From Terriglobales bacterium (GTDB lineage: Bacteria; Acidobacteriota; Terriglobia; Terriglobales; Acidobacteriaceae), in the NCBI GenBank assembly GCA_035651655.1, contig DASRFG010000030.1, positions 1 through 64,000 of the forward strand: a DNA stretch of 64,000 nucleotides, in the 5' to 3' direction. Each line of letters starts with the position of its first letter. Positions within the stretch are counted from its first letter, which is position 1. The translations under genes were made by a program, and so were the position numbers. The notes beneath the pieces were generated by a model. It had not been told where the DNA came from and did no database searches. It saw only the letters and a program-made list of their open reading frames with translations. This document shows, piece by piece, positions 35,371 to 39,561 of this stretch.

Positions 35371-36987
35371 TCAACTCACCGGGAGCTGGCAGACCACGAT
35401 ATTTTTGCCAAAGGAATGCACCGCCGGGCACCCAAGCTCTTTAAGTTTTGGCCACAGTAATGGCTGGGTATCAACGTTCCAGCCCGTCTGAAATATCCAG
35501 ATGCTTGACCCGGGTTTCAGTCCATAAGCCGCTGTCGCATGCTGAATAGCAGCGCTTAAGTTTTCGGGCGTAAACATCCACATGCGGGGACCAGTGGCCG
35601 AGACGCGGTACCTACCACAACCGAAGTCGGCAAATGGCCTTGCAGACATACTAAATTCAGCAACGCTCCCGCGGCAAAAGTAGTAGCGAAAAGGAAAGCT
35701 GGTTTGGTTATCCAGAATAACTACTGCACCGGGCGCAGCGGATTCTCCTAGAAACTTCACCGCCCCAGCCATAAAACTTTGTTTCTGGTTGGGCGGTTTG
35801 AAAGACGCTCCCAGCGGCACGGGTGCCAGGTAACACACCGCCATAGCGGACGCGGCAAGCAAAGGTTTTTTCCAATTGCTCGACGCAGGCCAGCGTGCCA
35901 GCCCCAGGCTTGCACCTGCGATTACAAACGCCGCAAGAAATACGCTGTGGCGCGTGCCGTCAAAAGGGTAGGTGCGAAACAGCTGCGCCGTCCAACTAAC
36001 GAGGAAGGGAAATGCCAGCAGGAAGGCGAGATGCCTGGGATTGGGCCGCGAGTGCTCAGGCACTGTTTGCTGGCGCAATAGACCTATCAGGCCCAGCACA
36101 TAGAGCAGGAGCATCAGCCCCCCAATCACCGGCTGGCTGAACAAATAATGAAATAGGCGGAAGGTTTCCCTTAGCAGGACGTTTAGCGCATTTTGTCCGC
36201 TCCCTTGGAAGAATCCCGTGACTTCCGCGATGCGTTTCAGCCGCAGCAAGTGACTTCTGTAGAGAAAAGCAAAAACCGCCGCGGCCACGGCCTGCCCAAT
36301 GACCCACGGTGCAATAACTCTCACAGTGGCACGAGAGTCGTAGAGCCGAATTATGGCGTAGGCCCCTACAACACAAGCAAACAGTAGGGCAGAGTAATGA
36401 GTGAGGATTGCGAAGCACAGCGAGAGCGAAAAGACCAACATCATGCCGGCCGAACTTTCCTGAACCGCTCGCTCCAGGGCGTAAAAGGAAAGAGCGATAA
36501 AAAACAGCAAGAGCGCGTACTGCCTGATCTCCGCACTCAAAGAAATGAGGGCGGGAGAAAAGGAGAAGAATATGAGCCCGACGAGCGCAGCCGTACGGTT
36601 GGTGATTCTGCCCAGCCATTTGAATCCTATCCAGCAAAAGAGCGTGCCCGCCAGTACTGACGGCAAGCGAAGCACAAGCTCCGAGTTGCCAAGGAAGCGC
36701 CAGTAGTAGAGCAGCGCTGCAAATAGCGGCGGATGAGCGGTAGTCAGATTCGCCTGATAAACCGACGCCAGAGATGCTTGGTTCGAGAGAAAATAGATCT
36801 GCGCCTCATCCGGGTTCAAATAGGTAGTCGCCGCCAGATAAAGGCGCGCGAAGAATCCTATCGCTACCATGCCGAGGGCCACGCCTGTGAAGTGAGAACG
36901 CGAACTCGCAGAGGGATAACTCTGCGGAACCCGCGTCATTTCAGCGATGGAACGCGAATTCTCCCTGCTTGATTGGAGACCATTCAT
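35371..36987 (-). CDS. GT39/ArnT-like membrane glycosyltransferase
   Basis: A polytopic membrane protein of about 538 aa with ten or more helices and the dolichyl-phosphate-mannose-protein mannosyltransferase-like N-terminal loop (YLNPDEAQIYFLSNQAS, with Asp-Glu at 60-61, then TTAHPPLFAALLYYW). This is the signature of GT-C family 39/83 enzymes that use polyprenyl-phosphate sugars. The acceptor is unknown. I take the ATG at 36987, which overlaps the ferredoxin stop as ATGA, rather than the upstream codons to 37086. It is co-transcribed with the [2Fe-2S] ferredoxin and probably DpsL. Confidence 0.78.
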   Translation of the reverse strand: MNGLQSSRENSRSIAEMTRVPQSYPSASSRSHFTGVALGMVAIGFFARLYLAATTYLNPDEAQIYFLSNQASLASVYQANLTTAHPPLFAALLYYWRFLGNSELVLRLPSVLAGTLFCWIGFKWLGRITNRTAALVGLIFFSFSPALISLSAEIRQYALLLFFIALSFYALERAVQESSAGMMLVFSLSLCFAILTHYSALLFACVVGAYAIIRLYDSRATVRVIAPWVIGQAVAAAVFAFLYRSHLLRLKRIAEVTGFFQGSGQNALNVLLRETFRLFHYLFSQPVIGGLMLLLYVLGLIGLLRQQTVPEHSRPNPRHLAFLLAFPFLVSWTAQLFRTYPFDGTRHSVFLAAFVIAGASLGLARWPASSNWKKPLLAASAMAVCYLAPVPLGASFKPPNQKQSFMAGAVKFLGESAAPGAVVILDNQTSFPFRYYFCRGSVAEFSMSARPFADFGCGRYRVSATGPRMWMFTPENLSAAIQHATAAYGLKPGSSIWIFQTGWNVDTQPLLWPKLKELGCPAVHSFGKNIVVCQLPVS

Positions 36988-37340
36988 GAGTAAGGCGCGG
37001 GAAGATTTTTCCTGCGCCGGAATTCCCGCATTTCCGCCTGCTGGTGGGTGCGGATTCGCAAGTCCGACCGCGGCTTCGCGGTGCATAGCAACACAAAACC
37101 AGACTGGCGGTCCTCTGGAAAATAACTGACGGAGTCAGACTGGTCCACCTCGCCCCCGTCCTCCAGGCGGCCGGCACAGGTCAGGCATCGCCCCTGGTGG
37201 CAGAGGGCAGGCAACTTGATACCTACGGCGTTCGCCGCATCCCAGATGTGCTCTTCGGACCCAACCGTGATGGTGCGCTCGCCCTCCGGCGTGATGAGCG
37301 TTACCTTGAAGAATGACTCGGTCGGCGATTCAGCTCCCAC
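36984..37340 (-). CDS. [2Fe-2S] ferredoxin, plant-type fold
   Basis: A 118-residue protein with a plant/cyanobacterial-type ferredoxin cluster motif: Cys47, Cys52, Cys55 and Cys86 (CX4CX2CX30C, in ALCHQGRCLTCAGRL and GFVLLCTAKP). The length and spacing match the family, with a basic C-terminal extension (MREFRRRKNLPAPYS). It overlaps the glycosyltransferase gene by 4 bp and lies 64 bp after the DpsL gene, with a strong 11-bp hairpin in that gap. The electron partner cannot be inferred. Confidence 0.9.
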   Translation of the reverse strand: MGAESPTESFFKVTLITPEGERTITVGSEEHIWDAANAVGIKLPALCHQGRCLTCAGRLEDGGEVDQSDSVSYFPEDRQSGFVLLCTAKPRSDLRIRTHQQAEMREFRRRKNLPAPYS

Positions 37341-37404: not shown

Positions 37405-38025
37405 CTAGGAACCGATGTAGAAGGGCCGGTTCTTGCTGTAAGGCGCGTCGCCAGGTTCGCCACGACGGAAATGCCCTGAAGGAATGCTCTTCTTGTCGCG
37501 TTCCCACGCGAGCAGTTCGATAAACCAGGCTTCGTGCTCGACTTCTTCGTTAAGAATGCGAGAAGCCATGTCGTAGGTCCGCGGGTCCTTGCCAAAGGTT
37601 ACATCGCACACGGCCTGCCAGCTGCGGATGGCGCAACGTTCCGACTCCAGCAGCAGAGTCAAAATATTGGTGGCCGTTGGGGGATCGGGTAACTTGGCTG
37701 CGGCACAGCCAGCCTGATTGTGAAAAGCCGGCAGGTCGTTCGGCAGTTCTCCACCGAGCTCATAGATACGGGGAACGATTAACTCCCAGTGGGCCCGGTC
37801 TTCCAGACGCGCGTCCTCGCAGATTTCCTTGTAATCTTCGTGTCCGGCCAAATGCATTCTGAGAATGGTGTAGTAGTAATACGTGCTGGCGAACTCAGCC
37901 GCCGCGTTGGCGACAAGCATTTTGATAAGTTTCTCCACGTCAACACCACGCGCGCGAATTACCTCCACACCTACGCGCTGCGTGACATCGCCCGCTTTCA
38001 CAACATTGTCTTGCTTAGCTGGCAT
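37405..38025 (-). CDS. DpsL-type thioferritin (Dps-like ferritin)
   Basis: A 206-residue ferritin-like four-helix protein. The ATG at 38025 is preceded by AGGAGGAAAC. Di-iron ligands are suggested by EDRAHWE (76-82) and NEEVEHEAW (159-167). The cysteines (107, 131, 140 in [20 protein letters not shown]) match the paired cysteines that set DpsL thioferritins apart from ordinary Dps. DpsL uses peroxide to oxidise and store iron, protecting DNA. It diverges from oxyR across a 99-bp region holding an OxyR-type operator, so induction by peroxide is likely. Family assignment rests on these motifs from memory. Confidence 0.78.
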
Positions 38026-38071
38026 GTTTCCTCCTGCTGGGAGTGTAGCGCGCAGGCCTGACATCGGTCTA

Positions 38072-38108
38072 AGATATGGATTCTATACATGCGATAGTTT
38101 TTGCCTCT
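38072..38108. promoter_or_regulatory. OxyR-type operator between dpsL and oxyR
   Basis: Four tetranucleotides at exactly 7-bp spacing: AGAT (38072), CTAT (38083), ATAG (38094), CTCT (38105). Against the E. coli OxyR consensus ATAG-N7-CTAT-N7-ATAG-N7-CTAT, 13 of 16 bases agree, including two perfect inner half-sites that also form a T-N11-A LysR box. It lies in the 99-bp divergent promoter region. Confidence 0.7.
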
Positions 38109-38124
38109 AGGCGAAGGGTCTGGG

Positions 38125-39027
38125 ATGCAAGTTCATCAGCTTCGATATTTTTGTGCGGTGGCGCGCAGCGGAAACTTTACTCGCGCTGCGGAACAGGAGC
38201 ACATCGCTCAGCCTTCGCTCTCCGCGCAGATTTTGAAACTGGAAGACGAACTTGGGGCCCGACTGTTCGATCGCCTCGGCCGTACCGCGCGCCTGACCCA
38301 TTTTGGACGGACTTTCTTGCCGCGGGCAGAAGCCATCTTGCGGCAGCTGGGAGCGGCCAAGCTCGAAATCCAGGAGATGGCAGGCGGCGACAATGGTCGC
38401 GTGGTGATTGGAGCTATCCCTACAATCGCTCCGTATTTTCTTCCCGGCCCGCTTACCAGTTTCGCCATCAAATACCCGCACATAAAGGTAAGCATTGTAG
38501 AAGAGATCACCTCGGTGCTGCTGCAGGGGCTTCACGAGGCGCGGCTTGATCTCGCGCTGGCTGCGCTCCCGGTGAGCGGAGAAGGGCTAATTTGCGAAGA
38601 ATTGTTGCGGGAGCGGCTCTACGTTGTGCTGCCGGCCAGGCACCATTTAGCATCACAGAAGCAGATTTCACTGAAACAGATCGAAGAAGAGAATTTTCTT
38701 CTGCTCAAAGAGGGCCACTGCTTCCGGGATAATGCGATCGCCGCTTGCCGGCGTGCGCGCCTGCAGCCCAATGTGGTTTTTGAAAGTGGACAGTTCGCTA
38801 CCATTGTTGCCATGGTTGCGGCCGGCATGGGAGTTTCGCTGGTGCCGACTATGGCGGTTGAACCGCGAAAGGGGTGTAGATTCGTGCCCCTGGCTGATGA
38901 AGCCAGTCATCGCAGGGTCGGAATCGTGCAACTCAAGCAGCATTTCCCGACGCGCGCACATCGCGCCCTGGTTGAGCACCTGCGCGAGAATGTGCGGCAG
39001 GAAAAGCAATTTGTGGCGGCGAGCTGA
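38125..39027 (+). CDS. oxyR: Hydrogen peroxide sensor OxyR (LysR family)
   Basis: A LysR-type regulator of 300 aa. The start is the ATG at 38125; an earlier codon at 38101 would add 8 residues. The winged helix occupies residues 1-60 (LRYFCAVARSGNFTRAAEQ, AQPSLSAQILKLEDELG). The effector domain carries the OxyR redox pair Cys199 and Cys208 in KEGHCFRDNAIAAC, at exactly the E. coli positions. Divergent DpsL, the adjoining operator and a following peroxiredoxin gene all fit an OxyR regulon. Repressor or activator mode cannot be told from the sequence. Confidence 0.92.
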   Translation: MQVHQLRYFCAVARSGNFTRAAEQEHIAQPSLSAQILKLEDELGARLFDRLGRTARLTHFGRTFLPRAEAILRQLGAAKLEIQEMAGGDNGRVVIGAIPTIAPYFLPGPLTSFAIKYPHIKVSIVEEITSVLLQGLHEARLDLALAALPVSGEGLICEELLRERLYVVLPARHHLASQKQISLKQIEEENFLLLKEGHCFRDNAIAACRRARLQPNVVFESGQFATIVAMVAAGMGVSLVPTMAVEPRKGCRFVPLADEASHRRVGIVQLKQHFPTRAHRALVEHLRENVRQEKQFVAAS

Positions 39028-39075
39028 CCAAGGGCGGTAAATCGCCAGCGACAGTTCTAAACACACGGAGTGGCA

Positions 39076-39561
39076 ATGGCACTGAAAGTAGGGGACACCG
39101 CACCGGACTTTGAGCTTCCCGCCCTGATCGGCGGTGTCAAAAAGAAGTTGCGGCTGCGCGATTATCTGGGAAAGAAGAACGTGGTGCTTGCGTTCCATCC
39201 GCTGAATTGGACGCCGGTGTGCACTACGCAATTTGCGGAGTACAACACGGCACTGTCGAAGTTAAGCGAGTACGACGCCCAAATCGTAGGCATCAGCGTG
39301 GATTCCATCTACAGCGATGGCGCCTGGGAAAAAGAGATTGGGCCCCTTGACTATCCACTCGTCAGCGATTACTACCCGCATGGCGAGGTCGCGATGAAAT
39401 ATGGAGTCTTCCGCGACCGTGAACCGTTCTCTGGCGTCAGCGAGCGCGCCATATTTGTGATCGATAAAAAAGGTAAGGTAGCGTTCAGCAGGATTTATCC
39501 CATGGACCATCTTCCTGAGACCAAAGAAGTTCTGATGGCGCTGCAGCAACTCAATCAATGA
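39076..39561 (+). CDS. 1-Cys peroxiredoxin (AhpC/TSA family)
   Basis: Reduces hydrogen peroxide and organic peroxides. The peroxidatic site is PLNWTPVC with Pro42, Thr46 and Cys49. No second cysteine exists in the 161-residue protein, so it is a 1-Cys (AhpE-like) type needing an external thiol. A distal Arg ([10 protein letters not shown]) completes the family signature. The start is the ATG at 39076 with GGAG 5 bp upstream; a GTG at 39070 is in frame. It follows oxyR by 48 bp and is probably under OxyR control. Confidence 0.92.

Follow-up and report, generated by a model that had tools for sequence, protein, structure and literature searches.

A conserved block at positions 38063–38108 of the window (the whole stretch of DNA analysed, 64,000 nucleotides) is, judged from sequence comparison, most probably an operator shared by the two arms of a divergent module for peroxide defence, in which an OxyR-like regulator would switch dpsL. 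The presence of a real operator between the OxyR-like gene and dpsL is very probable in view of its conservation and its co-occurrence with the regulator. Control of dpsL by this operator appears well supported, and sensing of peroxide by the regulator is likely. The features are as follows.

36984–37340, minus strand: plant-type [2Fe-2S] ferredoxin gene behind dpsL (TIGR02008 82.4 bits, cut-off 81.15; C47-x4-C52-x2-C55...C86)
37405–38025, minus strand: dpsL, 206 aa, DpsL/thioferritin with Cys107 and Cys131 (NF040955, solved relatives, cysteine alignment)
38042–38047, minus strand: candidate dpsL −10, TACACT (conserved distance of TAnnnT from the block)
38062–38109, plus strand: putative operator as delimited by the phylogenetic footprint, 48 columns (profile match 38062–38108, E 1.9e-9 in its own genome)
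38063–38077, no strand assigned: left element, ATCG-N7-ATAT (consensus ATAG-N7-ATAT; conserved columns, exact consensus in 14/26)
38066–38071, minus strand: candidate dpsL −35, TAGACC, tentative (direct reading; 18 bp from the −10)
38083–38097, no strand assigned: core inverted repeat CTAT-N7-ATAG, T-N11-A form (CTAT 22/26, ATAG 26/26; T84..A96 22/26)
38105–38108, no strand assigned: fourth quarter-site CTCT, weakly conserved (CTCT 9/26, CTTT 6/26)
38125–39027, plus strand: OxyR-like LysR-type regulator, 300 aa, Cys199/Cys208 (HMM families, sequence reading, orthologue alignment)
39070–39561, plus strand: AhpC/TSA-type peroxiredoxin, start GTG 39070 or ATG 39076, 42–48 bp behind the regulator gene (HMM)

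The block between dpsL and the regulator gene

The first-pass annotation had described a four-part OxyR operator at 38072–38108. The tetranucleotides that it named were present, AGAT at 38072–38075, CTAT at 38083–38086, ATAG at 38094–38097 and CTCT at 38105–38108, separated by three 7-bp spacers. Direct reading and a scan both returned its count of 13 of 16 bases in agreement, at exact 7-bp spacing, with the consensus ATAG-N7-CTAT-N7-ATAG-N7-CTAT, a pattern that the accessible text of PMC5720770 applies to OxyR of E. coli and of P. aeruginosa. The AGAT quarter-site matched the consensus at two of four bases. In the 64-kb window this was the one place with three or fewer mismatches (0.01 expected from dinucleotide shuffles), and 13 or more matches arose in 2 of 5200 base-shuffled dpsL-lysR intergenics. 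The 4.07-Mb genome held three such places versus two in the reversed control; the consensus match alone was thus not significant genome-wide, and it is position and conservation that carry the weight.

Conservation was assessed in 26 distinct dpsL-lysR intergenics, identical upstream sequences having been collapsed before counting. It had been proposed that relatives with the same gene order should keep the pattern, and all 26 did so at the homologous place, the register 38072–38108 scoring 13/16 in 17 of them, 14/16 in three, 12/16 in five and 10/16 in one. The intergenics aligned without gaps across 38063–38108, a block comprising the left element ATAGGTCTAAnATAT, CTAT and ATAG. The majority base was present in at least 24 of the 26 at columns 38063, 38065, 38067–38069, 38071–38072, 38074–38075, 38077, 38083, 38085–38086, 38094–38097 and 38108, with the window sequence itself deviating from the majority at 38065. 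Information content was 1.15–2.0 bits in the CTAT and ATAG columns and 0.01–0.52 bits in the spacer columns 38087–38092. The T-N11-A form was kept by the core in 22 of the 26 sequences and by the left element in 18.

The four-part description stood in so far as the pattern is real and the inner quarter-sites are kept, but the box had been drawn too short, the block starting at 38063, and quarter-sites 1 and 4 were poorly conserved. A strict four-quarter-site reading was rejected because the outer sites drift: the first was AGAT in 14 sequences, ATAT in nine and ATAG once, and the fourth was CTCT in nine. This drift indicates that the real unit is CTAT-N7-ATAG together with the left element ATAG-N7-ATAT. 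LysR regulators use a recognition site and an activation site, which the T-N11-A core and the left element resemble. The core CTAT-N7-ATAG would be the primary recognition site and the left element an activation site over the dpsL −35.

In 25 of 26 loci a −10-like TAnnnT box lay on the dpsL side, 13–14 nt past the block (5% in shuffles); the 26th locus (L117) has Ns at that place. In the katG-partnered loci TAnnnT was found within 11–16 nt in two of five. The shuffled controls for this box, for the register scores and for the dpsL upstream scoring preserved base composition only. Counted from the inferred start, this fixed distance would place the core near −55 and the left element over the dpsL −35. 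The candidate −10 TACACT would leave a very short leader of only about 10 nt, and a scan of 37900–38200 for sigma-70 promoters and terminators returned no site.

The regulator and its divergent partners

The redox cysteines had been assigned to residues 199 and 208, which is correct with the start ATG 38125. The LysR HTH and substrate domains were present (PF00126 78.2 bits, PF03466 183.7 bits). Residues T100, Y104, T129, H198, C199, C208, F219 and R266 (E. coli numbering) were found in all 42 distinct orthologues (at least 47% identity) and in E. coli OxyR; among eight other LTTRs, C199 occurred in none and C208 in CynR only. Apart from the two cysteines these are OxyR pocket residues, T100 and R266 lying around Cys199. 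In P. aeruginosa OxyR, Thr129 and His198 lie near Cys199, and His198 is critical for Cys199 reactivity (PMC8289212, in its accessible part).

Searches of the PDB returned OxyR chains first (P. aeruginosa and C. glutamicum), and the regulator at 38125–39027 scored higher with the NCBIfam OxyR equivalog model NF008361 than the other three LTTRs that a search of its genome detected (170.5 bits; the others 87.8, 86.8 and 103.7), a score below the model's cut-off of 329. The NCBIfam models for GltC, CidR and CynR outscored the OxyR model, none reaching its own cut-off. Whole-protein identity was 30.5% to E. coli OxyR, 30.5% to CynR and 31.7% to HcaR. A tree with few references and long branches placed the regulator group beside E. 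coli OxyR and the regulators of L201 and L139 with support of 80/84; an earlier tree, whose OxyR-like rows were E. coli OxyR and L139, gave no clear placement. Fold comparison with VIA-align gave C. glutamicum OxyR (Z 23.9) and BenM (Z 24.1) nearly equal scores, with many further LTTRs close to them, and so could not tell OxyR from the rest of the family. The original identification as OxyR is supported by the two cysteines, the pocket residues and the PDB ranking and weakened by the NCBIfam score; falling below that cut-off despite its tree placement beside OxyR, the protein is named OxyR-like and not OxyR.

The genes divergent from the regulator group were dpsL, katG, catalase, an Hfq-like gene (six loci) and a UvrB-like gene (one locus, L063), named mostly by reading or tblastn; HMMs were applied to two katG sequences, one catalase sequence and one Hfq sequence. 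The earlier tree nested L051–L055, whose partner is katG, among the dpsL-partnered regulators, a position that points to at least one partner swap. The Hfq-like gene was found at L056, L057, L058, L060, L061 and L062, whose regulators form a clade (L060 protein, TIGR02383 69.2 bits, cut-off 61.7), and the palindrome TCCAATATATAATTGGA was present in three of these six (L056, L058 and L061). The Hfq-partnered loci are reminiscent of the OxyR-OxyS-Hfq link of E. coli.

Many LysR regulators sense small ligands, and the operator could be real and control dpsL while its regulator responds to such a ligand instead of peroxide. We consider this unlikely: the better scores of the GltC, CidR and CynR models and the lack of any excess in whole-protein identity to OxyR lean towards it, but C199, C208 and the pocket residues are invariant in 42 of 42 orthologues, the partner genes include katG, catalase and dpsL, and OxyR chains lead the PDB searches. 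The peroxide control of dpsL predicted by the first-pass annotation gains support from the invariant redox and pocket residues and from the katG and catalase partners of related regulators, and likewise from operator copies that stand upstream of dpsL or katG at a distance from the regulator gene.

Co-occurrence of operator and regulator

Scoring with a weight matrix from the 26 sites covered 85 distinct dpsL upstreams: in 26 of them the regulator gene is adjacent, in 59 it is not. L126, whose dpsL begins at the edge of a contig, was excluded; it comes from G334, the genome in which the L117 locus, one of the 26, is also found. All 26 dpsL genes with an adjacent regulator carried the site (27–70 bits, leave-one-out). 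Among the 59 without, two carried it (scores of 48.9 and 49.4) and 57 scored −0.8 or lower, the maximum in 725 shuffles being 8.4. Both exceptions (L083 and L114) have an unlinked regulator orthologue in the genome (65% and 61% identity), so that all 28 block-bearing dpsL upstreams sit in genomes encoding a regulator orthologue. The Acidobacteriota supplied 40 of the upstreams without an adjacent regulator and other phyla 19; among the 40 the site was absent in 38. The genome-wide regulator search covered these 38 site-less Acidobacteriota genomes and found an orthologue of at least 55% identity in G311 only, where the orthologue (57%) is divergent from a catalase gene and dpsL has no site; three more of the 38 had relatives of 43–46%. 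Several genomes are incomplete MAGs, and a regulator not found in them may simply lie in sequence that the assembly lacks.

R1, a sequence-only profile built from 31 operators (26 dpsL, five katG), found one place in the genome of the window, the dpsL site, even at E ≤ 10. At E ≤ 0.01 it gave 33 matches, spread over 30 of the 298 genomes searched within the order, with about three expected by chance and with stricter filters under which weak sites can be missed. All 33 adjoined a related regulator (44–100% identity), dpsL or katG. Seventeen were training sites, and the other 16 comprised 11 at the regulator gene, one at a broken dpsL copy (L196) and four at katG. At these four katG operator copies (L173, L186, L192 and L195), among which L186 (E 1.5e-4) and L192 (0.005) are weak matches, no regulator was present within 1.5 kb, and they suggest a wider regulon. 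G104 and G146 each carry a dpsL-regulator unit plus a katG site. The broken dpsL at L196 (G232:C41) is a second copy, accompanied by a regulator remnant and the operator; it may be an assembly artefact or a pseudogene.

In a phylum-wide search at E ≤ 0.001, R1 matched in six of 396 genomes, two of them outside the order. One of these matches (L200), by a transporter gene, looks like chance. The other (L201, another Acidobacteriota family) lies between katG (68.7%) and an OxyR-family regulator at 1501–2484, whose best family was NF008361 (258 bits, below the cut-off of 329) and which is 40.5% identical to E. coli OxyR. On these scores the L201 regulator is a clearer OxyR, with the same operator core toward katG.

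Binding of a LysR regulator to its own promoter is common, and the block might serve the LysR gene alone, for autoregulation, dpsL being a mere divergent neighbour outside its control. The G110 regulator, which keeps the site with no dpsL found in 1.5 kb upstream, fits such an arrangement. Against it stand the sites at dpsL in two genomes with an unlinked regulator, the sites at katG in four genomes with the regulator absent within 1.5 kb, and the fixed distance from operator to dpsL −10-like box; the operators away from the regulator gene led to its rejection as quite improbable. A chance consensus match in the intergenic region, for which the genome count of three places against two in the reversed control might speak, was rejected as having next to no probability given the 26/26 conservation and the co-occurrence with the regulator.

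The module, its proposed switch and known systems

The dpsL product exceeded the cut-off of the DpsL family model NF040955 (281.7 bits, cut-off 250). Its best solved relatives were 2clb (219 bits) and 7stw (218 bits), and Cys107 and Cys131, the paired thioferritin cysteines, aligned with cysteines of 2clb, 7stw and 2vzb. A second ferritin-family gene in the genome was nearest to canonical Dps models, below their cut-offs. The expectation that the target is a DpsL rather than a canonical Dps agreed with the NF040955 score and with the single R1 site in the genome, at dpsL. No match to PF00141 (KatG) or PF00199 (catalase) was found in this genome.

Of the 80 loci L068–L147, 71 carried a ferredoxin gene like that of the window no more than 300 bp behind dpsL, seven had none and two had too little sequence; the pair occurred in 18 of 19 loci from records labelled as other phyla. 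The plant-type ferredoxin is a possible DpsL-specific electron donor. The second cluster cysteine was Asp in five of 73 aligned ferredoxins (L130, L138, L144, L145 and L147). A stretch of no more than 3 kb in a Bacteroidota MAG (L139, 3001–5659) combined a DpsL gene (70%) with genes for a ferredoxin, an OxyR-like regulator that has both cysteines, and a peroxiredoxin, and some regulator-less dpsL genes (L011, L069) had a divergent peroxiredoxin gene instead.

As proposed, the OxyR-like regulator would bind the block as a tetramer spanning about four helical turns, anchored on CTAT-N7-ATAG. Peroxide would oxidise Cys199, giving a C199-C208 disulfide, and the oxidised tetramer would engage the left element ATAG-N7-ATAT at the putative dpsL −35 region and switch on dpsL together with the [2Fe-2S] ferredoxin gene that follows, presumably as an operon. 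The same binding, just upstream of the regulator gene, would probably repress the regulator (and the peroxiredoxin behind it) or set the regulator's level.

This arrangement resembles E. coli oxyR-oxyS, in which a LysR regulator with C199 and C208 is likewise divergent from its target, with 7-bp-spaced tetranucleotides. The accessible text of PMC5002191 gives for oxyR-oxyS a footprint over 45 bp and predicted repeat centres at −66/−44/−35 from the oxyS start, compared with about −55 and −35 inferred at dpsL. Unlike in E. coli, the target here would be dpsL and the ferredoxin gene rather than the OxyS RNA, the outer quarter-sites are degenerate, an extra left element is present, and R1 failed to match the operator of E. 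coli oxyS-oxyR at E ≤ 1. In other OxyR-like units of Acidobacteriota the regulator is related and has both cysteines, and the operator core is the same, but the divergent partner is katG or catalase and not dpsL.

The pairing of a DpsL gene with a ferredoxin gene is also seen in the dpsl-arf genes of Sulfolobus solfataricus (SSO2079-SSO2080), induced 42- and 37-fold by H2O2 according to the accessible part of PMC2739297. That system differs in being archaeal and in having a Rieske-type rather than a plant-type ferredoxin, and OxyR control is not described in the same part of that paper. Among Dps-like proteins of bacteria, those of Bacteroides fragilis (DpsL, 2vzb) and P. aeruginosa (PA4880, DpsL/BrnD) are linked with oxidative stress or peroxide in the accessible parts of PMC12532284, PMC6158253, PMC13104616 and PMC11150526; 2vzb scored 56 bits to the window DpsL versus 219 for SsDpsL, which puts it on another branch. 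By analogy with the bacterioferritin-Bfd pair (PMC11150526, accessible part), the DpsL-linked ferredoxin may have a Bfd-like role. In the literature searched on DpsL/thioferritin, OxyR, ferredoxin and Acidobacteria, mostly abstracts and open papers, no report of this operator or of a plant-type ferredoxin as DpsL partner was found, nor, among the accessible literature on Acidobacteria with OxyR and LysR, a paper devoted to OxyR in Acidobacteria.

A broader reading is offered tentatively, at slightly less than even confidence: a separate Acidobacteriota OxyR-like lineage may aim its peroxide response at the DpsL-ferredoxin pair in a genome such as this one, where no catalase or KatG match is found, DpsL oxidising and storing iron with peroxide and the plant-type ferredoxin reducing the core for release in the manner of Bfd. 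On this broader reading the pair would be conserved across many bacterial phyla, while the regulator lineage would have swapped partners among dpsL, katG, catalase and hfq. Together, the operator, the regulator and the candidate regulon defined here, which concern peroxide stress in one of the major phyla of soil, would link a bacterial DpsL of archaeal type to an OxyR-like switch, and they make the DpsL-ferredoxin partnership directly testable.
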